Source of the DNA: a virus
Strand: one strand, 5' to 3'
DNA: 24,561 nucleotides
IMG/VR virus record: IMGVR_UViG_3300030339_000227
Span: 1-24,561 of that record
Part shown: in pieces, positions 1 through 22,022 of the stretch
How the letters are laid out: every line of letters starts with the position of its first letter
How positions within the stretch are numbered: position 1 is the first letter of the stretch
Program-made: the position numbers and the translations under genes
Notes under the pieces: generated by a model
Seen by the model: only the letters and a program-made list of their open reading frames with translations
The model's database searches: none
Told to the model about the DNA's origin: nothing

Positions 1-358
1 CTTCGGGTGCCAGGGCTTTGGAGGTGGTATCCATTTGCCGTTGTAGGTCGGAAGCGGTTTTTTTGAGCTGGGACATGGTCATGTTCTCGAGTCCCATGGA
101 TTTCTCGTGCTCCTTGACCAACAGGGTATTGTTAGCGATTTCTTTTGAATTAGTTTTATAGGTGGCCTCGAGGTTTTTCCACTGATCGGTGTTCTTTTTT
201 CCCTGGCCTTCGAGGTCGCGCATGGCTTTGCTGATATCCTTGTTGGTGGATATAAGTTCTTTGTTAGCGACATTGAGTTTTTGGATTTCCTGTTGTGCCT
301 GGTTGGCATCTATGGAGAGTATCCATTTTATTTGATCATCGGTTAGTTTTGAGGCCAT
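1..358 (-). CDS. Phage tail tape measure protein, N-terminal part (runs off the window)
   Basis: The reading frame opens with MASKLTDDQIKWILSIDANQ and stays open to the window edge, giving about 119 residues. The visible part is Lys/Gln/Asn-rich and predicted to be helical or coiled coil (repeated NKE, DLEGQGKKN and QLKKTASDLQRQM segments). This is how TP901-type tape measure proteins of Bacteroidota phages usually begin. These proteins set tail length and are usually among the longest phage genes, so most of it lies outside. A gp10-like neck/tail gene ends 63 nt upstream. A 41-bp dispersed palindromic repeat sits 14 nt before the ATG. The call rests on the N-terminus and position only; confidence is good for tape measure and low for subtype. 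Confidence 0.8.
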   Translation of the reverse strand, partial: MASKLTDDQIKWILSIDANQAQQEIQKLNVANKELISTNKDISKAMRDLEGQGKKNTDQWKNLEATYKTNSKEIANNTLLVKEHEKSMGLENMTMSQLKKTASDLQRQMDTTSKALAPE

Positions 359-4701: not shown

Positions 4702-5091
4702 TTAAAGTAGCAAGTAGAGCATCTGGAGGAGTGCTCCGTATCGTGCGGGGGTGAGGTGGTGAATGAGGTCGGTGCGGAAATGGAAGTCGATCAGGGTGTC
4801 GTATATTTCGTCACGGGTACATCCCTGAAATATTTCTTTGATCACCATTACGAGTCCTGCGGGTATGCATGAGTTAGAACGGCCGTAAATGTGCGCCACG
4901 TCGTCGATATAGGTGCAACAAAAATAGGTGTTACTCATGCAGCCCTGTATTTTGTGAGCGGGGATAACGAGGTGTTCGGGCATGGGTGGCAATTCGTCGG
5001 AGAGAGCCATGAGGTAGTTGAACCGGTTGGGCCATTCTTCCAGAGAGTTGAATATATCAACAAATTCATTTTGGCGTTGTTTCAGGTTCAT
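4702..5091 (-). CDS. SufE-like sulfur-acceptor protein
   Basis: A 129-aa protein, close to the ~138 aa usual for SufE. It follows the family pattern from end to end: RQNEFVDIFNSLEEW with FNYLMAL, then DELPPMPEHL, then IQGCMSNTYFCC around Cys51, then GLVMVIKEIFQGCTRDEI, and a LTPARYGALLQML tail. Cys51 in the GCxS loop matches the sulfur-accepting cysteine (Cys51 in E. coli SufE), which takes persulfide from the cysteine desulfurase SufS for Fe-S cluster assembly. No sufS or sufBCD is nearby; the neighbours are tail-region genes. It may serve host SUF machinery or mature an Fe-S tail protein (lambda gpL carries such a cluster). Extra cysteines at 58, 59, 75 and 91 are unusual. Loss of catalytic function is possible. 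Confidence 0.8.
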   Translation of the reverse strand: MNLKQRQNEFVDIFNSLEEWPNRFNYLMALSDELPPMPEHLVIPAHKIQGCMSNTYFCCTYIDDVAHIYGRSNSCIPAGLVMVIKEIFQGCTRDEIYDTLIDFHFRTDLIHHLTPARYGALLQMLYLLL

Positions 5092-6797: not shown

Positions 6798-7343
6798 TTA
6801 TGTATTATGGATTATAAATGGTTCGCACACTCCAGCCGAATAAAATGCAGCTGCTTTGAGAGCTGTCGATACTTTTTCTTTTGTTGGTATATCATTGCTT
6901 TGAATTGAATGTAAAGCACCTAATGCGTAGGGAGCACCACAACCGCATGACAAAATTCCATTCATGCTTTCGGCAACCTGATAATCTGAATAAATTTCAA
7001 ATAATCTGTTTTTATAGGCAACTAAAAAAGTACCTCCCATGTCTTCTCCATCTTTTGTTTTTTGCATAAACCCTCCATCAACAAAACATTTTCGAATAGC
7101 ATCAATAAAATCAGTACATAAGTATTCGTAAATATCCTTATTCTTGATTTCAGGTAGTTTTAGTGAAAACCGTAATAACTGAATCATCCGGAATGAAGAT
7201 GTACATCCGATTAAGAATGGACCATTTTTAAAGACTTTAGGGTCTTTTCTGATCGTAATTTCATAACCTGAACACCCTGCTGAATCAGCACCCATAGTTA
7301 CTGTTTTAGTTTTCTTATCGATAAATCCTACAATACATGTCAT
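6798..7343 (-). CDS. HslV/proteasome-beta-like Ntn hydrolase
   Basis: A 181-aa protein starting MTCIVGFIDK. Removal of Met would expose Thr2 as the N-terminal nucleophile used by Ntn hydrolases. Other family marks are TMGADSAG (acidic residue at 20), a Lys-rich RKDPKVFKNGPFLIG strand matching the catalytic Lys region of HslV, GGTFLVAYKNRLFEI, and the C-terminal CGCGAPYALGALHS and AAAFYSAGV segments. HslV forms rings that degrade proteins fed by the HslU ATPase; no hslU is present here. Phage homologues of this type exist, and their role is not settled to my knowledge. The gene is AT-rich against its neighbours and follows a 38-aa peptide gene by 22 nt, suggesting the two were acquired together. 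Confidence 0.85.
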   Translation of the reverse strand: MTCIVGFIDKKTKTVTMGADSAGCSGYEITIRKDPKVFKNGPFLIGCTSSFRMIQLLRFSLKLPEIKNKDIYEYLCTDFIDAIRKCFVDGGFMQKTKDGEDMGGTFLVAYKNRLFEIYSDYQVAESMNGILSCGCGAPYALGALHSIQSNDIPTKEKVSTALKAAAFYSAGVCEPFIIHNT

Positions 7344-8579: not shown

Positions 8580-8616
8580 CCCCTTTAGGGGCTTGGGGTT
8601 CTTTAGGGGTTCTTTG
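8580..8616. repeat. Inverted palindromic repeat forming the portal gene's end
   Basis: CCCCTTTAGGGGCTTGGGGTT plus an extra TTTAGGGGTTCTTT. In the minus-strand frame of the portal gene it supplies the last codons Lys-Asn-Pro and the TAA stop. Confidence 0.85.
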
Positions 8617-10144
8617 GGGCCTCTGCTGTGGCCGTATTCGTCAACCGGTCCTTGGGTGTTGTTTCCTGTTGTTTTGCCGGGATATCGATCCAGAAGCCTA
8701 ATTTTATTCCCTGAGCTTTAGCTGAAGGAAAATTGATCTGAATAGCCCGGTTGAGTTCCTGAAGAATAAAAAATTCGTCCCATGTGAGCGTAGATACATA
8801 CAACAGGTAATTGTAGTACACATCGGCACCGGCAAGGGAAATGACGCCATCTTTATCGACTCCAGTTAATGCTCCGGGAATACCCAACGAAGCAAGCACG
8901 ACCTGGTCGGACCGCTTATCGTTGCTGTTGATTGATTCGATGAATTCTTTGAACTTACCGGGGAAATCTTCGAACTTCCATGGATTATCACCCCACTGGG
9001 TGGTAGCATATAGTTTGCCCTGGTTCTTTCCTTCGCCGGACATCAGCGAAGTAATACGTTTGAGTTCACAGTTGATCAGGTCGTCCACCATCGTTTCAAA
9101 GAAGCGGAAAGGTTTACCGATGTCGTCCACCAGCTTAACACCGCGGTATTCGGTTTGCAGGGGCGTATCAGGATCACCCATCAGGTTGTTGGAACAAATG
9201 CTCTCGAGTATCGTTTTTTGCTGCATGTACCAGTCGCCCGGGATAATGACGTGAACGTGGGCATTGAGGGCATTTTTATAATATGAGTTGGTGTACTTTG
9301 GTGCCAGGTTGGACGACTTAATGTATTCGGAAGCTCCCTTGAACCAGTCGGAATATGCGTATACCCATTTGGTAAAATTTTCGTCGGCATTGAAAGCGAT
9401 CGAATACGGATATTTAAACGGGGCGCGTGGATCGAAACGCGGGAAAACGTCGTACTGGTGAGAAGATATGTATAACCAATCACCAACGATCACGGACTGG
9501 CAATCTTCCATTTTAATGCGACGATTGACGAAATCACCTACGGCAGCGGGACGGGCTTCGTCGGAACCGACATACGACAATGCATCAATCGAAGCGGGTG
9601 CACCGATACGACGTCCTTTGTTCATGTTGTATTTTGTGACACATGTTTTGACGAAATAATAGTCGGTAGCGAGTTTTTTGAGGTATTTCCAATAATGTGG
9701 ATATCCTTTTTCTTCCCAACTTTCGAGCCAGTTTTCAATGTTTGAATCAACCCAGGGAACCCTGACGCGGCGTTTGTCTTTTCCTTCGCCAATGGTTTGC
9801 TCCTGATACAGGCGCGGACCTTTTCCGAATAAGAAATTAACCTGTTTTTTTATCAGTTGAGGGATTAACTTATGTTCGCCTGTTGTGGCTGCCACTTCCT
9901 GAGGGTACAAGTTATGTCCTTCGCCCCAATAGGGTACATTAAAATCACCAAGGCGCATCGAAACGCGATCGTTTGTGTATTTGCTGTACAGGGTCTGAAA
10001 TTCGCGGGTAGTGATATCCTGACGTTCGGATACTCCCTGGATCTCGAAAGTTACGACATTGGCCTGTGAAATAGCCACACCGCGATGGTTGTTTACCCAA
10101 TCGACTTTTATTTCACTTTCAGGGATTAATTTTTTCATATTCAT
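8603..10144 (-). CDS. Phage portal protein
   Basis: About 513 aa, typical of portal proteins, placed after the terminase genes and before a connector. The sequence carries features of Bacteroidota phage portals: KKQVNFLFGKGPRLY, an aromatic-rich clip region (YAYSDWFKGASEYIKSSNL) and a C-terminal SLGIPGALTGVDKDGVISLAG then YVSTLTWDEFFILQELNRA, similar to the end of the portal core. The portal is the dodecameric ring at the capsid vertex through which DNA passes. The start at 10144 (MNMKKLIPES) is preferred because it is the first ATG after the upstream stop at 10153; an ATG at 10162 and a GTG at 10177 would overlap that gene. The final Lys-Asn-Pro-stop comes from a dispersed repeat. Confidence 0.85.
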   Translation of the reverse strand: MNMKKLIPESEIKVDWVNNHRGVAISQANVVTFEIQGVSERQDITTREFQTLYSKYTNDRVSMRLGDFNVPYWGEGHNLYPQEVAATTGEHKLIPQLIKKQVNFLFGKGPRLYQEQTIGEGKDKRRVRVPWVDSNIENWLESWEEKGYPHYWKYLKKLATDYYFVKTCVTKYNMNKGRRIGAPASIDALSYVGSDEARPAAVGDFVNRRIKMEDCQSVIVGDWLYISSHQYDVFPRFDPRAPFKYPYSIAFNADENFTKWVYAYSDWFKGASEYIKSSNLAPKYTNSYYKNALNAHVHVIIPGDWYMQQKTILESICSNNLMGDPDTPLQTEYRGVKLVDDIGKPFRFFETMVDDLINCELKRITSLMSGEGKNQGKLYATTQWGDNPWKFEDFPGKFKEFIESINSNDKRSDQVVLASLGIPGALTGVDKDGVISLAGADVYYNYLLYVSTLTWDEFFILQELNRAIQINFPSAKAQGIKLGFWIDIPAKQQETTPKDRLTNTATAEAPKNP

Positions 10145-10152
10145 TGATTTAT

Positions 10153-10461
10153 TCAAAACCATTTTATTGTAAGCCACTCATTTGAGGGTGGGAAAGCTAT
10201 TTTGCGGATCAGTTTTTTAAAACAGGTACGGGCTTCACCGGTATTGACATTTTCGAAGAATAAGTAATGATCGGAATTTACGGCTAATCCTTCGGTTTTC
10301 ATTGCTGGCCGGATACGGCAATCTTCGTATTTGCGGATTTGTCCGTACTCATTTCGCTGTAAATCGCAGGTTATGAAAATAATGGCAAATGTGGCTCCGG
10401 GAATGAGTTTAATATTGCGGATCCGCGTAAATGCATCGGTACCTGAAATTGTTTTTTCCAT
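10153..10461 (-). CDS. Small hypothetical phage protein upstream of portal
   Basis: A 102-aa protein starting MEKTISGTDAFTRIRNIKLI. The ATG at 10461 is preferred to an in-frame TTG two codons earlier. Strand-rich centre (GATFAIIFITCDLQRNEYGQ) and a basic end (ARTCFKKLIRKIAFPPSNEW). No motif recognised. It ends 8 nt before the portal ATG, so it is co-transcribed with portal. A terminator and a palindromic repeat lie upstream, partly isolating it from the terminase genes. It might be a minor head or packaging accessory protein. Confidence 0.6.
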   Translation of the reverse strand: MEKTISGTDAFTRIRNIKLIPGATFAIIFITCDLQRNEYGQIRKYEDCRIRPAMKTEGLAVNSDHYLFFENVNTGEARTCFKKLIRKIAFPPSNEWLTIKWF

Positions 10462-10785: not shown

Positions 10786-12498
10786 TTAGTTTGTTGAATA
10801 GGTCCCCGCTCCCATGACTGTGACAGTACGACGGTCTGAATCGGGTAACAGGCGACTGAATTCGCCCCATAACAGGTACATAAGAGCAGATGCGATCTGG
10901 GTGGAGTAGAATGCCTGATCTTTATAATCGAGCAACTTTTCGGAGCTTTTGTCGAGTTCAATTTTACCTTCAGTACGTTTGAGCGGTGAATGGTAAATAC
11001 TCGATACGGTTGCTTCACACTCATTTTCGTCAATCATTACATCATCCCGGTTGCCTTCGTTTTTGCCGAATAACAGATTTAACAGTCGGTAATGTTGTGA
11101 ATAGAAAATCGTGGGTTGTCCCAGGCTCATCAGGGTAACGTTCCAACCGAGCTTCTGTAAGGCCGTTTTAAGCAAGATGGCATCGGTGTCGTTCAAATCC
11201 CCGTTCAGGGCATAATACTTGCGATAATGGGGGTCACGTTGATTCGCTGCCCTATCGTAGTGCAAGATGATTGTCTTTTTTCGTTGATATTTGAAGAATT
11301 CATTGAATTTAAGTGCCATTTCTTCGTGTTGCTCCGGATGAATGACCCACATATCTTTAATAAGCCTGAATTTCTTTTCTTTTTTATTGCGCTGGGCGAT
11401 GACCATGCTCGAGAACGGTCCGGGATCCAGTCCGATGATCAACGGTTGATTTGCATCCCAATATTTCAGATTTTTGCAGGAATGATCAAACTTCTGATCG
11501 ACTGACAACTTATCGATGTGCTTGTAATTGTATCCATCGTCGAATGTGTGTTCTTTGCCAAATCGACCGAAAAAACGGTCTTTAACCATGTTTTTACGAA
11601 TGGCCAGAATCGACGTGTTGAGTTTATCGATATCCTTAATGGATTTAATTTGATTTTCGATATAGTCGATCCCTAAAATCTTAAGGTTCGAAAATGAGGA
11701 TGCCCGGGCATAGAAAGTCTGACCACGTCGGAGTTCTGTCAATCGTTTTTCCCATCGATCGATAAATGCAGTTAGTTTTTTGATGTTCTTTTCATCGAAA
11801 TTCTTCTCGGCAATTATCAGGTCCGATTTACGCATGTCGACCTCCCTGGCAATTTCCTGAATGCATTTAATGAGTTCGATATTCATATTCGCTTCATAGC
11901 GTATCCACCAATCGTGGTCGGTCTCAAAATTGGGAGTGGATGATATGCCGGTAATGCCCATAAAGTAATGAGAATGCCCAAATTTTGAACGATCGGCACG
12001 CAAAGCAGGGATAATGCGTTCGGTGAATTTATCTTCAGGAATACGCAGCATTTCGTCCACTAATAAATGAGCGGCATTCTTACCCAACATGGATTCAGGT
12101 CGATCGCAGGATACGAATTGAACAACGCACCCATTGACAAAACTGATGGTATGCTTCCAGTTGTCAATATAGGTCGAGCATTTAGCGAAATGTTTAGGGG
12201 GTTGTTTGCCTATTTCGAAGTAAATACCGCGCTCATAATGCTCATAGAAGTACTCCATAAGACCAGGCAGAATGTTTTCGAATATCGATATGTAGGTCGA
12301 TGCAGCCAGTACAATGACAGCACCCGGCATATCATTCTGTATACGATCCAGGCGGGGGGCTAATATGTGGGTAGTCTTACCCGATCCACGCCCTAACTCA
12401 CAAAATAGAAAGGTAGGATCGGCTAACTTTATCTGGATCTGAATAATGGTCAGGTAGACAGTCAGGAAGATATCCAGTGCATACTTACGTATTTTCAT
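10786..12498 (-). CDS. terL: Terminase large subunit (ATPase/nuclease packaging motor)
   Basis: A 570-aa protein. The N-terminal ATPase has a Walker A motif GRGSGKTT (about 37-44), an adenine-side region ILAPRLDRIQ, and Walker B with catalytic Glu in HLLVDEML (about 144-151). The C-terminal RNase H-like nuclease begins at PLIIGLDPGPFSSMVIAQ (about 350), with IILHYDRAANQRDP as a later acidic strand. TerL translocates and cuts concatemeric DNA at the portal. Its start overlaps the upstream TerS-like gene by 14 nt. Length is within the usual range. Transcription comes from the promoter at 13126-13156. Confidence 0.92.
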   Translation of the reverse strand: MKIRKYALDIFLTVYLTIIQIQIKLADPTFLFCELGRGSGKTTHILAPRLDRIQNDMPGAVIVLAASTYISIFENILPGLMEYFYEHYERGIYFEIGKQPPKHFAKCSTYIDNWKHTISFVNGCVVQFVSCDRPESMLGKNAAHLLVDEMLRIPEDKFTERIIPALRADRSKFGHSHYFMGITGISSTPNFETDHDWWIRYEANMNIELIKCIQEIAREVDMRKSDLIIAEKNFDEKNIKKLTAFIDRWEKRLTELRRGQTFYARASSFSNLKILGIDYIENQIKSIKDIDKLNTSILAIRKNMVKDRFFGRFGKEHTFDDGYNYKHIDKLSVDQKFDHSCKNLKYWDANQPLIIGLDPGPFSSMVIAQRNKKEKKFRLIKDMWVIHPEQHEEMALKFNEFFKYQRKKTIILHYDRAANQRDPHYRKYYALNGDLNDTDAILLKTALQKLGWNVTLMSLGQPTIFYSQHYRLLNLLFGKNEGNRDDVMIDENECEATVSSIYHSPLKRTEGKIELDKSSEKLLDYKDQAFYSTQIASALMYLLWGEFSRLLPDSDRRTVTVMGAGTYSTN

Positions 12499-13108
12499 TG
12501 TCTTCCCCCTCTATGTCTATGTCCAGTTCACGCGATACCTCTGTCCTTAACCTGTCCTTATCGGTACTACTGATATCAAAGTCATTGATTAGTTTCATTG
12601 CCTTTTCGTATGCAGGCAACAGTCCTTGCTTCTCTATGCCCATACGCATGAGCTTCATATCGGCACTAACAATCTGAGGTTTGAACTTAATACGATCGGG
12701 GTTTACTGCATTGCCCGATGCCAACAGATTCCATGCCCTGGCATCTTCTATGCATTCACGCGCTTCCTTAAAGTCATGAGCAACCAGGTTAACTTCAAAC
12801 AAACGCATAACCTTATCGGCATAGAACAGGTTCCATGCTTCTGAGGTTACGGAACAATCGGCATTCAGGTAGTTGATAGCATCGTATATCCGATCCTTGC
12901 AGGTGGATACAGATAGCATGCGATATACACGTTGTAGTTGTTTGGCACATTCGGTAATCGATTGATACTTCTTAAGCAGGTTGGATGCTTCATTTACCTG
13001 GAGTATGTACTCTGCCAATGGTTGTGGAATACCAACCTGTTTAAAGTCTCGTGTATCCAGGAATCTTTCTACAACTTCAACAGGCAATTTACGTAAGTGA
13101 TCTATCAT
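12485..13108 (-). CDS. Putative terminase small subunit
   Basis: About 207 aa, almost entirely helical, directly before and overlapping TerL by 14 nt, the usual place of TerS. The start at 13108 (MIDHLRKLPVEVVERFLDTR) is chosen because a near-consensus promoter at 13126-13156 lies just upstream; the in-frame alternative at 13183 would be upstream of that promoter. The N-terminal PVEVVERFLD...FKQVGIPQPLAEYI region could form an HTH. Its acidic end (EGEDNENT) would suit TerL contact. Sequence similarity to known TerS is not evident by eye; TerS proteins are poorly conserved. Confidence 0.65.
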   Translation of the reverse strand: MIDHLRKLPVEVVERFLDTRDFKQVGIPQPLAEYILQVNEASNLLKKYQSITECAKQLQRVYRMLSVSTCKDRIYDAINYLNADCSVTSEAWNLFYADKVMRLFEVNLVAHDFKEARECIEDARAWNLLASGNAVNPDRIKFKPQIVSADMKLMRMGIEKQGLLPAYEKAMKLINDFDISSTDKDRLRTEVSRELDIDIEGEDNENT

Positions 13109-13125
13109 TGTTGATTTGTTTTGTT

Positions 13126-13156
13126 CAAAGTTAATAGATGTGCTTTTGTACCCAAA
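13126..13156 (-). promoter_or_regulatory. Near-consensus promoter of the packaging operon
   Basis: TTTG (13156-13153), 19 nt, then TAACTTTG (13133-13126), an exact match to the Bacteroidota form TTTG-N19-TAnnTTTG. Expected transcription start is near 13119, leaving a short leader before the ATG at 13108. Confidence 0.75.
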
Positions 13157-13161
13157 GGACG

Positions 13162-13198
13162 AAACGAATGGTTTTTGAAACAAAACGAATCGTTTTTG
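13162..13198. promoter_or_regulatory. Two phased 16-bp direct repeats upstream of the promoter
   Basis: AAACGAATGGTTTTTG (13162-13177) and AAACGAATCGTTTTTG (13183-13198) differ at one base and are 21 bp apart, two helical turns. The second copy is itself palindromic (AAACGA-A-TCGTTT). They lie directly upstream of the -33 box, where an activator would bind. Confidence 0.6.
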
Positions 13199-13466: not shown

Positions 13467-13955
13467 TCAGGTCAAAAGGAGTTTTATGATCTCATGCTTT
13501 ATTTTTGCACGGGTGAGGTTGAGCTCCCAGCTGGCCAGTTCATCGTCCGACTTGTATTTTTTGGTACGGATCTGACTTTCGATGCGACGAATGTTCTGTA
13601 TGACGTTGGTTACTTCATTTAAGAATGCTTCGGGGTTGGTGGCCTTCATCTCCGTAAGGTCAGTTAATTGGTCGTTGTTGTATTTGCGTGCCCTGGCGAG
13701 GCTGTGAATGCACAAAAACGTGTGGTTATCGTTGAAAGACTGGAGCTCGTTGTGGGCCGACTGGTTACGGATATCGAGCTGTACCATTTCGAGGGCGAGT
13801 TCGGGATGGTCGTCTATAGATGCATCAATCTCCTGCAGGCGATGATACGTGTTAACGCGTTCGTCATACAGGAGAATGCATGTTTGAATATCTGGATCAG
13901 TATTATCTGACCAGGCTATTCCTGGGAATTCGTCGTACTTGAGTCGCTTTTTTTT
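13467..13955 (-). CDS. Downstream frame of a frameshifted gene pair (tail assembly chaperone-like)
   Basis: The open frame runs for 162 codons, from the nine-A tract inside the 3' end of the previous gene to 13467. It has no ATG, GTG or TTG for its first ~54 codons; the first ATG is at 13787. Yet those codons read like ordinary protein (YDEFPGIAWSDNTDPDIQTC; RVNTYHRLQEIDASIDDHPE), so translation must enter from upstream. A -1 shift at the A tract joins it to the 183-aa gene to give a protein of about 335 aa. The body is helical with conserved-looking Asp/Glu-rich loops. This matches the G/GT architecture of siphovirus tail assembly chaperones. A sequencing error in the A tract would make it simply the C-terminal part of one gene. 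Confidence 0.7.
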   Translation of the reverse strand, partial: KKKRLKYDEFPGIAWSDNTDPDIQTCILLYDERVNTYHRLQEIDASIDDHPELALEMVQLDIRNQSAHNELQSFNDNHTFLCIHSLARARKYNNDQLTDLTEMKATNPEAFLNEVTNVIQNIRRIESQIRTKKYKSDDELASWELNLTRAKIKHEIIKLLLT

Positions 13956-14467
13956 TCATCAACAGTGGGGACGGTGATGACTGGAGCGACAGTGGTATCG
14001 ATAGCTGGAGTTTCTTTAGTAACCGGAGTTTCAGGAGCTTCAATTGTAATAGTTTTCACACCATTTAATTCGGATTCGGCTAATGCTTTTTCCTGAGCTT
14101 CTTTAATTTTGGCATCTGCTAATAACTGAGCTTCTGAGTCTGCTATTGCCTGAGCTTTGGCATCTTCTTTTTCCTTTTTTTCGGCTTCTTTGGCGGCTTT
14201 GATATCGGCTTTTTTCTTGTTGGCCAATTCCAGGGGAGTGAGGCGGTTGTTAAGGATGTCTTCCTGATCAACTTTGGCGAGCAATTCGTACAGCATACGA
14301 CCGTGAAGGGAATCCATGTTGTGCTCGTTTACTTTGGTTAATTGAGCACTGAGTTTAGATCCGGGGAAATAGTCGTTGAATAATTTCAGATCAAGGTAGA
14401 AATGCTTTGCAGATTTCATCTGTTCGGCCATCTCACCCCTTTCGGATATTGTTAATATTTTTTTCAT
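13916..14467 (-). CDS. Upstream frame of a frameshifted gene pair (tail assembly chaperone-like)
   Basis: A 183-aa protein. Residues 1-80 are compact and helical (QMKSAKHFYLDLKLFNDYF; LSAQLTKVNEHNMDSLHGRM). Residues ~85-135 are Ala/Glu/Lys coiled coil, then a Pro/Thr/Val-rich linker (PETPVTKETPAIDTTVAPVI). The frame meets nine A's (GAT GAA AAA AAA AGC) and stops ten codons later. A -1 shift there continues into the frame ending at 13467. It directly follows a likely tail tube gene, the normal position of tail assembly chaperones. The tape measure gene is, however, ~13 kb further on rather than adjacent. A terminator-like hairpin precedes the start. Confidence 0.7.
   Translation of the reverse strand: MKKILTISERGEMAEQMKSAKHFYLDLKLFNDYFPGSKLSAQLTKVNEHNMDSLHGRMLYELLAKVDQEDILNNRLTPLELANKKKADIKAAKEAEKKEKEDAKAQAIADSEAQLLADAKIKEAQEKALAESELNGVKTITIEAPETPVTKETPAIDTTVAPVITVPTVDEKKSDSSTTNSQE
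13948..13956 (-). other. Putative -1 ribosomal frameshift / slippage site (A9)
   Basis: On the minus strand the bases are GATG followed by nine A's and GCGA. Zero-frame codons are GAA AAA AAA AGC; the -1 frame reads AAA AAA AAG CGA. A_AAA_AAA is a strong tandem slip site, and A9 can also cause transcriptional slippage. The zero frame ends 32 nt later at 13916. Confidence 0.65.
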
Positions 14468-14481
14468 GTTTTTTTAGTTTA

Positions 14482-14511
14482 AAAAAAGGTGCACTGTAAT
14501 ACACCTTTTTT
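14482..14511 (-). terminator. Rho-independent terminator-like hairpin between tail genes
   Basis: AAAAAAGGTG/CACCTTTTTT, a 10-bp perfect stem with a 10-nt loop, in the 62-nt gap after the 268-aa gene. It probably reduces read-through into the frameshift pair. Confidence 0.8.
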
Positions 14512-14529
14512 AGTTAAACAATAAAATGG

Positions 14530-15336
14530 TTACGTACGGTACACTTCGTAGAAGGCAAAACCGGTAGCCGTTTTGGTAATCTGGAAACTGATGGAATTAC
14601 CAACAGCACCCGTGAATGACAGACCAGCGTTCAGAATAAATGCGGTAGAATTGGCAATGGTAGTCGGGAAATTAACTCCGGCACCAACGAGTTCGATAAT
14701 ACGTCCAACATCGCCAACGGTAACGCCCGTGATATCGGTCAGAGCTTTGGCAGCCGTATTGTCGGAAAGCAGATACTGAGAACCGGTACCGATGGCAAAT
14801 GTAGTCAGGGCAGCCAGTGAGATAACGGTAGCTACTTCACGAACGACAGGTCCATCGTAGAATAGGAATGGTTCAGGGCAATCGGCACCATCGAGCGACA
14901 AGGCAGCACCCAGCACTTTGGTTGCGATTTCACCGATTCCGGTATACTTCAGTACCAATCCACCACTGCATGGTGAGCCACCAATGAATTTTTGACCATC
15001 GGAACAACGTTCCCAAATGGCAATAAATTCTTCACCGGCATTTTCATAGATCCAGGTAAGCAATGCTTTGCTTAATCCTTCCACTGAGAATGGCAATGCG
15101 AGTTTGCCTGACTGTGGGGTTTCACCGGCAGCTGCGTTTGGTTTCAGAGTCGAAATCAGCGTGTCGATATACTTGAAATACTGACCGGCCAGCAACGGGT
15201 TAGTCGAAATGGTGGCACCTACCGCTTTCGGGAAGTTGTCAATATCCACAGAACTCAAACGTGCGAGGAAAAGCCGGAATTTTAACGACGATAATTTGTC
15301 GTTTTTATTGATATTGCGGGTTTGATCCAATAACAT
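14530..15336 (-). CDS. Putative major tail (tube) protein
   Basis: A 268-aa protein. The N-terminal two thirds carry a strand-rich region with EEFIAIWERCSDGQKFIGGS followed by PCSGGLVLKYTGIGE, a pattern I associate with tail tube or major tail proteins of Bacteroidota phages. The last ~100 residues are Gly/Ala/Thr-rich and beta-like (TGVTVGDVGRIIELVGAGVN; NSISFQITKTATGFAFYEVY), as in an added Ig-like or decoration domain. It follows the capsid gene and precedes the frameshift pair, which fits tube then chaperone order. It could instead be a head decoration or minor capsid protein. The ATG lies 7 nt after an ATTTACACAGAT repeat pair. Confidence 0.6.
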   Translation of the reverse strand: MLLDQTRNINKNDKLSSLKFRLFLARLSSVDIDNFPKAVGATISTNPLLAGQYFKYIDTLISTLKPNAAAGETPQSGKLALPFSVEGLSKALLTWIYENAGEEFIAIWERCSDGQKFIGGSPCSGGLVLKYTGIGEIATKVLGAALSLDGADCPEPFLFYDGPVVREVATVISLAALTTFAIGTGSQYLLSDNTAAKALTDITGVTVGDVGRIIELVGAGVNFPTTIANSTAFILNAGLSFTGAVGNSISFQITKTATGFAFYEVYRT

Positions 15337-15433: not shown

Positions 15434-17413
15434 TTAGACAGTAACTTTGCGTTCGAGTTCGAGGAATTTACCGGTTGGAGTTGTCACTTTTACCGATTTA
15501 CCATCGATAGTAGTTGCAACATCATGTAATTCGGCATACACCTTGATGTAGTCACCAACGGCAGCTGGCTGGAAGTCGGCAGAAATCGTGCTGAATGCAC
15601 CTGCTTTCACCAGTTTGGTAGTTGCAAAATCAGCACCGGCAACTAATTTATAAACCGTTTCAATACTTGCATTATTAACGGTTGTAACAGATGCTACAGT
15701 TCCGGAAATAGTGAACAAATTATTGGCAGCAAATGACATGGTAGCAGCTATCGTAATAGCTGATGCAGGGAAATTTGTAAAGATCCATTGCAATTTACGA
15801 CCTGAAGCGGTAAGTTCGGCCAACGTTTTAAATTTAGCACCCGGTTGTAAAACTCCGGCACCTTCTTTCCAACGTGTCATCGTCAGTATGACTTCAAAAC
15901 GACGTTCGAAATAGAATGCAAGCATTTCCATCGGTTTGTCTTCGTAATTTTCAACATTACCAGGTAACGTGATCCACATCTTGTAATTGTTGTTCGGGAT
16001 GTTTGGAACCCAGGTAATATTGTCCGGGTGAAGATCAGGCAATTGTTGTCCTAAAACAACAGCACCGGTATATGCACCGTATTTTTCAGCCCAAAGTGCC
16101 GTATACCATGGTTTGTGTTTTAAATTGGCAAACACTTTGTAGCCTTCGGTAGTATCCAGAATCTGAACAATTTTGTTCCAGAAAGAAGTCACATAATCCA
16201 ACATGGTAGCATCAGTGTACAATGCCAGGTCAGTGAAAGGAAGTACTTTCAATTCTTCTTCAACACGTTCGATAGCACGAAGGGCACCATCGGCACCTAA
16301 CATGGCAGGATTGGCAACAACATCCTGTTGAGGAACTGCCACACCTACAACGCGACGACGTTGTTGTTCGTTGAACAATGATTTACCAAAATATACCATG
16401 ATCCATTCCATGAATGTCCATTTGATCACGTCAGAACCTTCACGGTTGTAATAACCGATGTATTTCTTTTCGAGGGCGATCATGTCAGCGAATTTGTACT
16501 TGAACATCACGTCAATAACCTGATACACTTCTGCAGCAAATTCGACAGATCCTTTAAAGTATTCACCTTCGCGATAACCTTGTGACAATTCTCCAAAAGT
16601 AGCTGTAGGAGCAACTTCTTTGTTTTGAATATTTGAAACAAGTGGGAAAATACCTGCAACTGAAGGTAACGAACGGAAATAAGCCAACATCATATCGGAA
16701 CGACGTACTGTATATTCACCATTCAATCCAGCAACTGTATCAGTTAATGAAGAATAATCGATATGACCTTCGCCAGCCATCATTTGCTTTAAGTTTAGAG
16801 AACCTAATTGATTGTTAGCAGCCAATTCAATAACACGATTGCTCAATCCCTGGGCGAAATTACCAAATGCAGCCATGAAACTTTCCTTATCGGATTGGTT
16901 CAGGGTATTACCCATTGGTGTGCGGGTAGCAGTAATTTGATTCCACCAGTTTGAACGAATGTACATTGGTTCGTCGATACCGAACAAATGAGTCGATGTG
17001 TGAGGAGTGTGACCAATGATCATAGGAATAATGCGGGCTGCGTTAGCTTGCATCGATACGGTTACAGGAACAACAACTTCAGGTTCGTCGGATAACGTTT
17101 TGATTTGTTGTTGCTGAGTTTTAACCGTTTTAGCTAAAACAGTAACAGCTGCTGCCGGTGTAGTTGGAGCCTCGGCAGTAGTTACATTCAAAAGAGTTGC
17201 TATTTCAGCAATTTCTTCAGCCGATAATAATGTCTGCTCAATGACTACATCCTCATTGAGTCTTTTGTCTTCTTCCAACGAAACACCATAAGTTGTTTCG
17301 TAGTTGGTGACCATCGTTCTGATTTCTTCAGCGGTCAAAGAACTGGCTTTGACCTTTTCAGAAAAACCAAGACTAATGATCAACGCCATTAATTGTTTTT
17401 GCCACTTTTTCAT
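15434..17413 (-). CDS. Major capsid protein with N-terminal scaffold-like region
   Basis: A 659-aa protein, long for a capsid protein. Residues ~1-125 are helical and low in complexity (SAEEIAEIATLLNVTTAEAP; VTVLAKTVKTQQQQIKTLSD), as in a scaffolding or delta domain removed during maturation. The middle (~130-560) is the shell protein, with FGNFAQGLSNRVIELAANNQ, YTVRRSDMMLAYFRSLPSVA and FYFERRFEVILTMTRWKEGA. The last ~90 residues are Thr/Val/Ala-rich beta (ITIAATMSFAANNLFTISGT) and may be a surface Ig-like domain. The S49 protease gene ends 3 nt upstream, fitting proteolytic prohead maturation. The fold (probably HK97-type) is inferred from context, not from a motif. Confidence 0.75.
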   Translation of the reverse strand: MKKWQKQLMALIISLGFSEKVKASSLTAEEIRTMVTNYETTYGVSLEEDKRLNEDVVIEQTLLSAEEIAEIATLLNVTTAEAPTTPAAAVTVLAKTVKTQQQQIKTLSDEPEVVVPVTVSMQANAARIIPMIIGHTPHTSTHLFGIDEPMYIRSNWWNQITATRTPMGNTLNQSDKESFMAAFGNFAQGLSNRVIELAANNQLGSLNLKQMMAGEGHIDYSSLTDTVAGLNGEYTVRRSDMMLAYFRSLPSVAGIFPLVSNIQNKEVAPTATFGELSQGYREGEYFKGSVEFAAEVYQVIDVMFKYKFADMIALEKKYIGYYNREGSDVIKWTFMEWIMVYFGKSLFNEQQRRRVVGVAVPQQDVVANPAMLGADGALRAIERVEEELKVLPFTDLALYTDATMLDYVTSFWNKIVQILDTTEGYKVFANLKHKPWYTALWAEKYGAYTGAVVLGQQLPDLHPDNITWVPNIPNNNYKMWITLPGNVENYEDKPMEMLAFYFERRFEVILTMTRWKEGAGVLQPGAKFKTLAELTASGRKLQWIFTNFPASAITIAATMSFAANNLFTISGTVASVTTVNNASIETVYKLVAGADFATTKLVKAGAFSTISADFQPAAVGDYIKVYAELHDVATTIDGKSVKVTTPTGKFLELERKVTV

Positions 17414-17416
17414 ACT

Positions 17417-18331
17417 TTAAAATTTTAATTGTGAATACATTGTTTTGTTTTGTGATGATATTGCAAGAACCGCGTCAATCGCTTGGTTAAGGTTCATAAG
17501 GCCGTCGATAGCTTTGTACGATATTGCATCATACGCGTAAAATTCACGTCCCTCCAAAATACCTTCGACCGACTGATCGATTTTTGGACGGCATTCTTTT
17601 ATGATATTCTGAAAATGAATTGCCATTGGGGTGAGTGATTCGTCGATCATGGGTTTATTATCCCCTTCCAATGCTTTACGGAACGTCAGGTTTTTGAAAC
17701 TCGATTCGGGCGGATAAATGGAACGGATAACAATGCCGGCGTTTTCCAACATTTTAGATTGATCAATCAGTTGGGCGAATGTTCCGATAGAACCCCATTT
17801 GCACATGCGATTGGTGGCATATACTTTATCGCAAAATGCTGCCACATACGCGCCACCTGATTCGCACATTCCATCAATAAGGCCAACACATGGTTTTGTA
17901 CGATTACGAAGTGCATCTTCGAGTTGGTAAATTGAATCGGTACATCCTCCTGGAGTATTGATGAGTAAAATAGTACCTGCAATATTTTGAGCTTTATCGG
18001 CTTCACGAATCAAGTTGGCAATTGAATCCATCCCGATGATGTACTTGTATTCATCCCAGTCGATTCCGGAATACTTCATCATCATGCCAATAATTGGTAA
18101 AATGACAACGGATCCATCTTCATAACCAGAGAATGGACCTGAATCATCGCTTTCCATACAATCGGAACTAATCATATTCGGGTGCAATCGGAGCATGGAA
18201 GGTTTAACACTTCTATCTCCCGAAAAATGTGATGGTGATATCATCCGGGATATAAGTAATTGCGCTTCGTTTATTCCTGATTCGGAAAGAAGAAGCGGTG
18301 AGGAAGTGAGTTCGGTGAGTAGGTTAGTCAT
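17417..18331 (-). CDS. S49-family prohead protease (SppA/ClpP-like)
   Basis: A 304-aa protein. Core motifs are GTILLINTPGGCTDS (about 119-133), the nucleophile loop GMCESGGAYVAAFCDKVYA with Ser158, and KWGSIGTFAQLID (about 178-190), followed by a Lys-containing segment QSKMLENAGI as in S49 peptidases that use a Ser/Lys dyad. Phage members cut the scaffold region of the capsid during head maturation. The capsid gene starts 3 nt downstream, so the pair is a maturation unit. The start codon lies inside a perfect 9-bp hairpin (18329-18355), suggesting that its translation is restrained. The N-terminal 65 residues are variable and may be a linker. Confidence 0.88.
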   Translation of the reverse strand: MTNLLTELTSSPLLLSESGINEAQLLISRMISPSHFSGDRSVKPSMLRLHPNMISSDCMESDDSGPFSGYEDGSVVILPIIGMMMKYSGIDWDEYKYIIGMDSIANLIREADKAQNIAGTILLINTPGGCTDSIYQLEDALRNRTKPCVGLIDGMCESGGAYVAAFCDKVYATNRMCKWGSIGTFAQLIDQSKMLENAGIVIRSIYPPESSFKNLTFRKALEGDNKPMIDESLTPMAIHFQNIIKECRPKIDQSVEGILEGREFYAYDAISYKAIDGLMNLNQAIDAVLAISSQNKTMYSQLKF

Positions 18332-21200: not shown

Positions 21201-22022
21201 TTATTGATTGAATTTTTTACAATTAACTGCTGTTATAATAGGATTTGCATATTCACGTTGAAACTTCTTCCAATTCGTGTTAACTATCCCTTTTTCGTTT
21301 CTCCACAACATTGCGAAGGGAAAAAATCCAGCTCTTACTGTTTGCTCTATTCGTATTAGAGCTTTATCAAATGTATCTGTAGGATAACCAATCAAAACAT
21401 AACATCTTGCTTTCCTTGTTTCGTAAGTTATATTTGCAGGTTTCAATAATTTGCCGGCTTCGATAAGGGGATCCAAATCATCCGGAGTATCATAAGCACA
21501 AAATAACTGTTCTAACCGTATTTTACTAAATAGATCAACATGCCAACTTTTCAATAATTTTGCTTCAATACCTCCGGAAAAAACTGCGGGTTTTGGTTGT
21601 AATTTCAACATTTCAAAAACTGAACGAATATGCTGATCAGAACATGCCAGTAAATTATCATCCTGAATAATCCAACCTGGTTTAATGATAAGTTCTTTTA
21701 CTTCGGGTTCCCGTTTCCACACTGAACAAAACCAGCATTTATTTGTACATCCGCGTGATGTAATAGTATAACCGTTTTTTAAATACATTCCAGGTTCAAA
21801 TTCAGTTCCGATACTATTTAGTGCTGGACCTCCAATTTCAACCGGTGCAACATGTTTCCATTCGTTATAAAGCTTTTCAGCAATTGGAATATCATAAGTA
21901 AATGCAACGCTTATGTTTATCTTGTCAGCTTCATCAAATAACTCGGGATTCCGATTTATTATAGCAAATTCATCATCAGGAGTAGCACGTGTTTTACGAG
22001 GAAAAATTCGGAGTACTTTCAT
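21201..22022 (-). CDS. Radical SAM protein
   Basis: A 273-aa protein. Cys92, Cys96 and Cys99 in TSRGCTNKCWFCSVWKRE form the CX3CX2C motif that holds the [4Fe-4S] cluster used to cleave S-adenosylmethionine. FSGGIEAKLL (~148-157) fits the GGE region, and CYVLIGYPTDTFDKAL (~207-222) a later strand of the partial TIM barrel. Residues 1-85, with EIGGPALNS, resemble a shortened cobalamin-binding-type Rossmann region, though no DxHxxG is seen. The substrate is unknown; phage radical SAM enzymes may modify nucleotides, RNA or peptides. It starts 2 nt after the VapE-like gene, in the same operon. AT-rich relative to that gene, so possibly a later acquisition. Confidence 0.85.
   Translation of the reverse strand: MKVLRIFPRKTRATPDDEFAIINRNPELFDEADKINISVAFTYDIPIAEKLYNEWKHVAPVEIGGPALNSIGTEFEPGMYLKNGYTITSRGCTNKCWFCSVWKREPEVKELIIKPGWIIQDDNLLACSDQHIRSVFEMLKLQPKPAVFSGGIEAKLLKSWHVDLFSKIRLEQLFCAYDTPDDLDPLIEAGKLLKPANITYETRKARCYVLIGYPTDTFDKALIRIEQTVRAGFFPFAMLWRNEKGIVNTNWKKFQREYANPIITAVNCKKFNQ

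Follow-up and report, generated by a model that had tools for sequence, protein, structure and literature searches.

A conserved tract of nine adenines suggests RNA polymerase slippage in a putative tail assembly chaperone gene of Bacteroidales siphoviruses

Two overlapping reading frames in the window (the whole of virus record IMGVR_UViG_3300030339_000227, 24,561 bases long) are best read as a single siphovirus gene, from a virus of Bacteroidales, with two proteins as its expected products. RNA polymerase would slip on a run of nine adenines (A9) near the end of the first frame, so that some mRNAs carry ten A's. Ordinary translation of the unslipped mRNA would yield a 183-aa N-only form, and ordinary translation of the ten-A mRNA a 333-aa fusion consisting of an N domain, a linker and a C domain. 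The short form would coat the tape measure protein, as in the lambda gpG/gpGT system, and the C domain of the fusion would recruit the tail tube protein encoded just upstream. The probability of this account as a whole (polymerase slippage, two products, and a chaperone pair as their most likely role) is put at about 0.68.

Both frames are located on the minus strand. The upstream (zero) frame (13916..14467, 183 codons) encodes the short product, which is made up of an N domain of ~75 aa, a low-complexity linker rich in K, E and A, and a 10-codon tail followed by the stop. The A9 tract (13948..13956, minus strand; T9 on the plus strand) is followed by a G, and the zero frame reads through it as GAT GAA AAA AAA AGC ... 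CAG GAA TAG, ending at the TAG at 13916..13918, ten codons past the tract, as had been claimed. The downstream (-1) frame (13467..13955, minus strand, 162 codons) is open from 13955 to its stop at 13467 and encodes a helical C domain, which is reached only via the tract. The same 333-aa fusion would result if the RNA gained an A or if the ribosome shifted by -1. The -1 frame has its first ATG, GTG or TTG 56 codons in, namely an ATG at 13787; the original prediction of a coding stretch that precedes any start codon is therefore upheld, with its count of ~54 codons corrected to 56. Residues encoded ahead of this ATG (K..DEFP.I.W..N...IQ.CILLYDERVNTY) are kept in relatives at 33-75% identity, so this part of the frame is real coding sequence. 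Alignment of the relatives shows that conservation of the C domain sets in with the residues right behind the tract, well ahead of any start codon.

Searches with the C domain retrieved relatives in viral contigs, in contigs of Bacteroidales genomes and in prophages of Porphyromonas gingivalis, and an HMM of the N domain matches all but 3 of 98 loci. Domain profiles located both halves in 95 loci, 83 of which have split frames and 12 a single frame. The tract in the split-frame loci is A9 in 78 of the 83, A10 in four and A8 in one; the -1 arrangement is found in 80 of the 83 and is combined with A9 in 77. Removal of close copies leaves 59 split-frame clusters below 90% identity, with A9 in 54, A10 in four and A8 in one, and the out-of-frame A9 with the -1 arrangement dominates (53 of 59). 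Other runs of at least seven A's in the same flanks are exactly nine long in only 6 of 159 cases. Ten further records from phage collections, eight of them P. gingivalis prophages, all carry A9; nine show the split of the window, and the remaining one lies too near a contig end to tell. An A9 that joins two frames in the -1 arrangement, which had been proposed from the window alone, is thus borne out by the window sequence and by the conservation of both the tract and the split in its relatives. Three split loci (L037 with A10, L065 with A8 and L103 with A9) need a +1 rather than a -1 change; they could reflect misassembly, or be genuine variants for which slippage of the polymerase would serve as well.

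We reject two other explanations of the split because of how tract lengths and frames are distributed. Homopolymers are error prone, but a sequencing error or a decayed gene has a negligible chance of accounting for an identical A9 and split that recur in dozens of separate contigs as well as in isolate prophages, in which both frames and the zero-frame stop are conserved. Phase variation, in which replication slippage in the DNA at the homopolymer would toggle the fusion, is very improbable. Such runs are mutable, and A8 and A10 forms exist, but no locus has the frames fused through the A-tract (an outcome that had been posed as a refutation of the split), the out-of-frame A9 prevails as described above, and those relatives that are fused are devoid of the tract altogether.

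The fused relatives comprise 12 loci (L038-L047, L104 and L105), in which a single uninterrupted frame covers N and C and the tract is lacking; they are monophyletic on the tree. To judge from this clade, N and C act as one chain. A second gene for an N domain was sought within the stretches examined in this clade and was not found; only the fusion was seen. The capsid, protease and, where seen, tube-like genes of the clade are on the strand opposite to the fused gene, which adjoins the portal gene. In the clade of the window, the Ile codon that overlaps the zero-frame stop is ATA in 28 of 30 sequences, and the other Ile codons vary. As ATA yields TAG or TAA in the zero frame and is kept even though Ile codons elsewhere vary, the zero-frame stop is conserved. 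Taken with the one-frame clade, this comparison indicates that both products are under selection. Conservation, together with the clade whose fusion is encoded by a single frame, strongly supports the view that an N-only protein and an N-C fusion are produced at A9 in a programmed way.

Either RNA polymerase or the ribosome could slip on the tract. In bacteria, runs of nine A or T give efficient slippage of RNA polymerase, whose hybrid is 9-10 bp long (PMC5009743); the tssM3 gene of Yersinia undergoes slippage at A9 with an efficiency of 15-25% (PMC4256274). In many genomes, selection against runs becomes evident at length nine (PMC1088944). In the ribosomes of Bacteroidia, the anti-SD is occluded (PMC8710568). 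The A9/-1 clusters are distributed over codon phases 0, 1 and 2 as 27, 9 and 17, with at least 15 changes of the codon phase of A9 on the tree. For an in-frame A AAA AAA, seven A's would be enough in phase 2 and eight in phase 1, yet no tract in these phases is shorter than nine. A G follows the tract in 52 of the 59 clusters, in every phase, and follows other A-runs in 147 of 470 cases. AAA is not forced by codon usage, since 40% of the nearby Lys codons in the same genes are AAG. The tract thus has the features of a slippage site, a run of at least nine A or T of conserved length whose presence is independent of codon phase. A constrained length with a free phase points to polymerase slippage rather than to a ribosomal heptamer.

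Classical -1 programmed ribosomal frameshifting at A AAA AAA or A AAA AAG would give the same products and is an unlikely, though by no means negligible, alternative. Known recoding of tail chaperones is ribosomal (PMC5009743), an in-frame A AAA AAA heptamer is present in any A9, which means that slipping of the ribosome can contribute, and the -1 arrangement in nearly all of the split loci is the one that such a shift needs. Against it stand the fixation of nine A's in all phases where seven or eight would suffice, and the 3' G that is independent of phase. A stimulator for a ribosomal shift, either an SD-like element or a stem 5-10 nt downstream, was not found: an SD-like motif precedes the tract in 1 of 57 cases, and stems starting near it are rarer than in control windows (38/57 versus 242/285). 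Nor is the A-run replaced by another slippery heptamer in any split locus. We infer both the slippage itself and the polymerase as the machine that slips from these sequence patterns, which suggest polymerase slippage over ribosomal frameshifting by about three to one; both could act. The ribosomal shift implied by the original prediction is accordingly retained in its -1 arrangement and, given length nine in all three phases, becomes less likely as far as the ribosome is concerned.

The region contains two hairpins. One (13821..13883, minus strand, z -3.82) is conserved inside the coding sequence of the C domain; in the relatives, synonymous variation is suppressed in its arms and compensatory changes are present. 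The P. gingivalis prophages have a separate strong hairpin at overlapping codons (L002 near 15520-15595), and neither the fused clade nor the Prevotella-type relatives have the hairpin. It was considered as a frameshift stimulator and set aside, because it starts ~65 nt 3' of the tract, farther away than stimulators usually lie, and because the large Prevotella-type clade lacks it but retains A9; both points also speak against the ribosomal shift. Guesses at its role include RNA processing, packaging or a protein-binding site. The second hairpin (14475..14525, minus strand, z -4.52) is terminator-like, has arms made of A and T, and is located between the tube-like gene and the pair, although it falls outside the rules of the terminator scan. 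Hairpins unrelated to it in sequence occupy the same gap in L004, L006, L009, L012, L021, L030, L058 and L073, and none is present there in L002, L022 and L110. The gap hairpin may lower the expression of the pair relative to that of the tube. A search of Rfam gave nothing above threshold.

The neighbouring genes, all on the minus strand, place the pair in a block of structural genes. Directly upstream of it is a probable tail tube protein (14530..15336, 268 aa), the AlphaFold2 model of which is beta-rich with a pLDDT of 91.9. Its Foldseek matches are mostly tube, neck, baseplate and Hcp proteins, individually weak (E 0.01-1), and one of its homologues matches the tail tube family phrog_185 (E 0.0037). 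The predicted tube-like fold supports the position after a tail tube gene that had been assigned to the pair. Further upstream are the major capsid protein (15434..17413; ~30% identity over 99% to annotated Porphyromonas phage capsids) and a head maturation protease of the S49 family (17417..18331; phrog_53 6e-34, PF01343). Downstream are a protein in the position of the small terminase (12485..13183, identified by position and conservation only), the terminase large subunit (10786..12498; phrog_2 3e-9), the portal protein (8603..10177; aligned to an annotated portal gene of a P. gingivalis phage) and, cut by the contig end, the N-terminus of the tape measure protein (2..358; phrog_25337 1.1e-12). 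The order of protease, capsid, tube-like protein, pair, terminase, portal and adaptor is conserved. As noted originally, terminase, portal and other genes, ~13 kb in all, separate the pair from the tape measure gene; this order had been called unusual, but it is the norm in this Bacteroidales virus family and not an oddity of the contig. The minus strand of the window also carries a SufE-like gene inside the structural gene block (4702-5091; PF02657, E 1.5e-23), a gene for an HslV-type peptidase between the adaptor and the tail genes (6798-7343; phrog_1040, E 1.8e-22) and a gene for a radical SAM protein (21201-22022; phrog_9298, E 1.8e-19).

The AlphaFold2 model of the natural fusion L104 (pLDDT 89.5) consists of an all-helical N domain with five confident helices, a disordered linker and a C domain that forms a helical bundle with a pLDDT of ~97. 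Comparison of the fusion with Pfam, PHROGs, NCBIfam and PDB sequences revealed no credible family, and a fold search of the PDB and BFVD gave no significant match. Alignment with hhalign to lambda G or T, and likewise to lambda V, did not produce a match. A search for close relatives with the upstream protein alone returned nothing; its linker diverges. As in G/GT-type genes, the overlapping frames are arranged, in a conserved manner, to give N-only and N-C proteins, both of them predicted; similarity in sequence or fold to known chaperones was not detected in the databases searched. We infer the function from gene order and from this arrangement: the best reading, and a reasonably probable one, is a tail assembly chaperone acting in the manner of gpG/gpGT, because the gene follows the tube-like protein in a conserved order. 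Of the G/GT identity proposed earlier, the position directly after a tail-tube-like gene is supported and a match to known chaperones is not. It is possible, if doubtful, that the two products of the gene serve in a different role, such as that of a scaffold or an accessory protein of the capsid or terminase. The missing match to known chaperones, the location of the pair in the head gene block and the placement of the fused-clade gene by the portal, opposite in strand to the capsid and tube-like genes, would fit such a role. The position of the pair directly after the tube-like gene, its all-helical two-domain form and its N/N-C output, which fit the logic of G/GT, argue for the chaperone instead.

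Recoding of tail chaperones is textbook ribosomal frameshifting. Literature searches outside subscription papers turned up no case of transcriptional slippage described for a phage tail or tail-chaperone gene. The same output as in G/GT recoding seems to be reached here at the level of transcription, and since the run has stayed at nine A's while shifting among all codon phases, the two mechanisms can be separated by comparison. Whether one goes further and holds that, in a large group of siphoviruses of Bacteroidales, polymerase slippage at an A9 of hybrid length governs the ratio between two tail-assembly proteins, in place of the ribosomal G/GT shift, with one clade having turned to a plain fusion, is in our view an even bet.

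Known slippage genes include dnaX of Thermus thermophilus (A9), tssM1 of Citrobacter (A11), tssM3 of Yersinia (A9), mxiE of Shigella and IS elements. Like the gene described here, each of them carries an internal run of A or T no shorter than nine and has a short and a long product. Unlike them, the present gene is a phage morphogenesis gene, its tract is kept across a large and diverse group of phages, and its slippage is predicted. The closest described phages are the P. gingivalis prophages (BK068097-BK068113 and PP754931; proposed Nixviridae type), which are alignable and share both the gene order and the gene split at A9. In GenBank, the prophage pair (BK068097-BK068113, e.g. L002:14966-15945) is annotated as two hypothetical proteins, the second of which begins at an internal ATG; current annotations of this Bacteroidales virus family would thus miss a fusion protein. 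The G-T frameshift of lambda gpG/gpGT and of HK97-type phages is similar in that it lies right after the tail tube gene and, through a net -1 shift late in the first frame, gives rise to both an N-only protein and an N-C fusion. It differs in using a ribosomal heptamer fixed in phase, where the present gene has an A9 with free codon phase, and there is no detectable homology between the two. Also unlike lambda, the gene described here has a long low-complexity linker, and terminase and portal genes separate the pair from the tape measure gene. Finally, lambda needs both forms, whereas in the fused clade the fusion alone is seen; this clade offers a natural case for testing whether two forms are needed.
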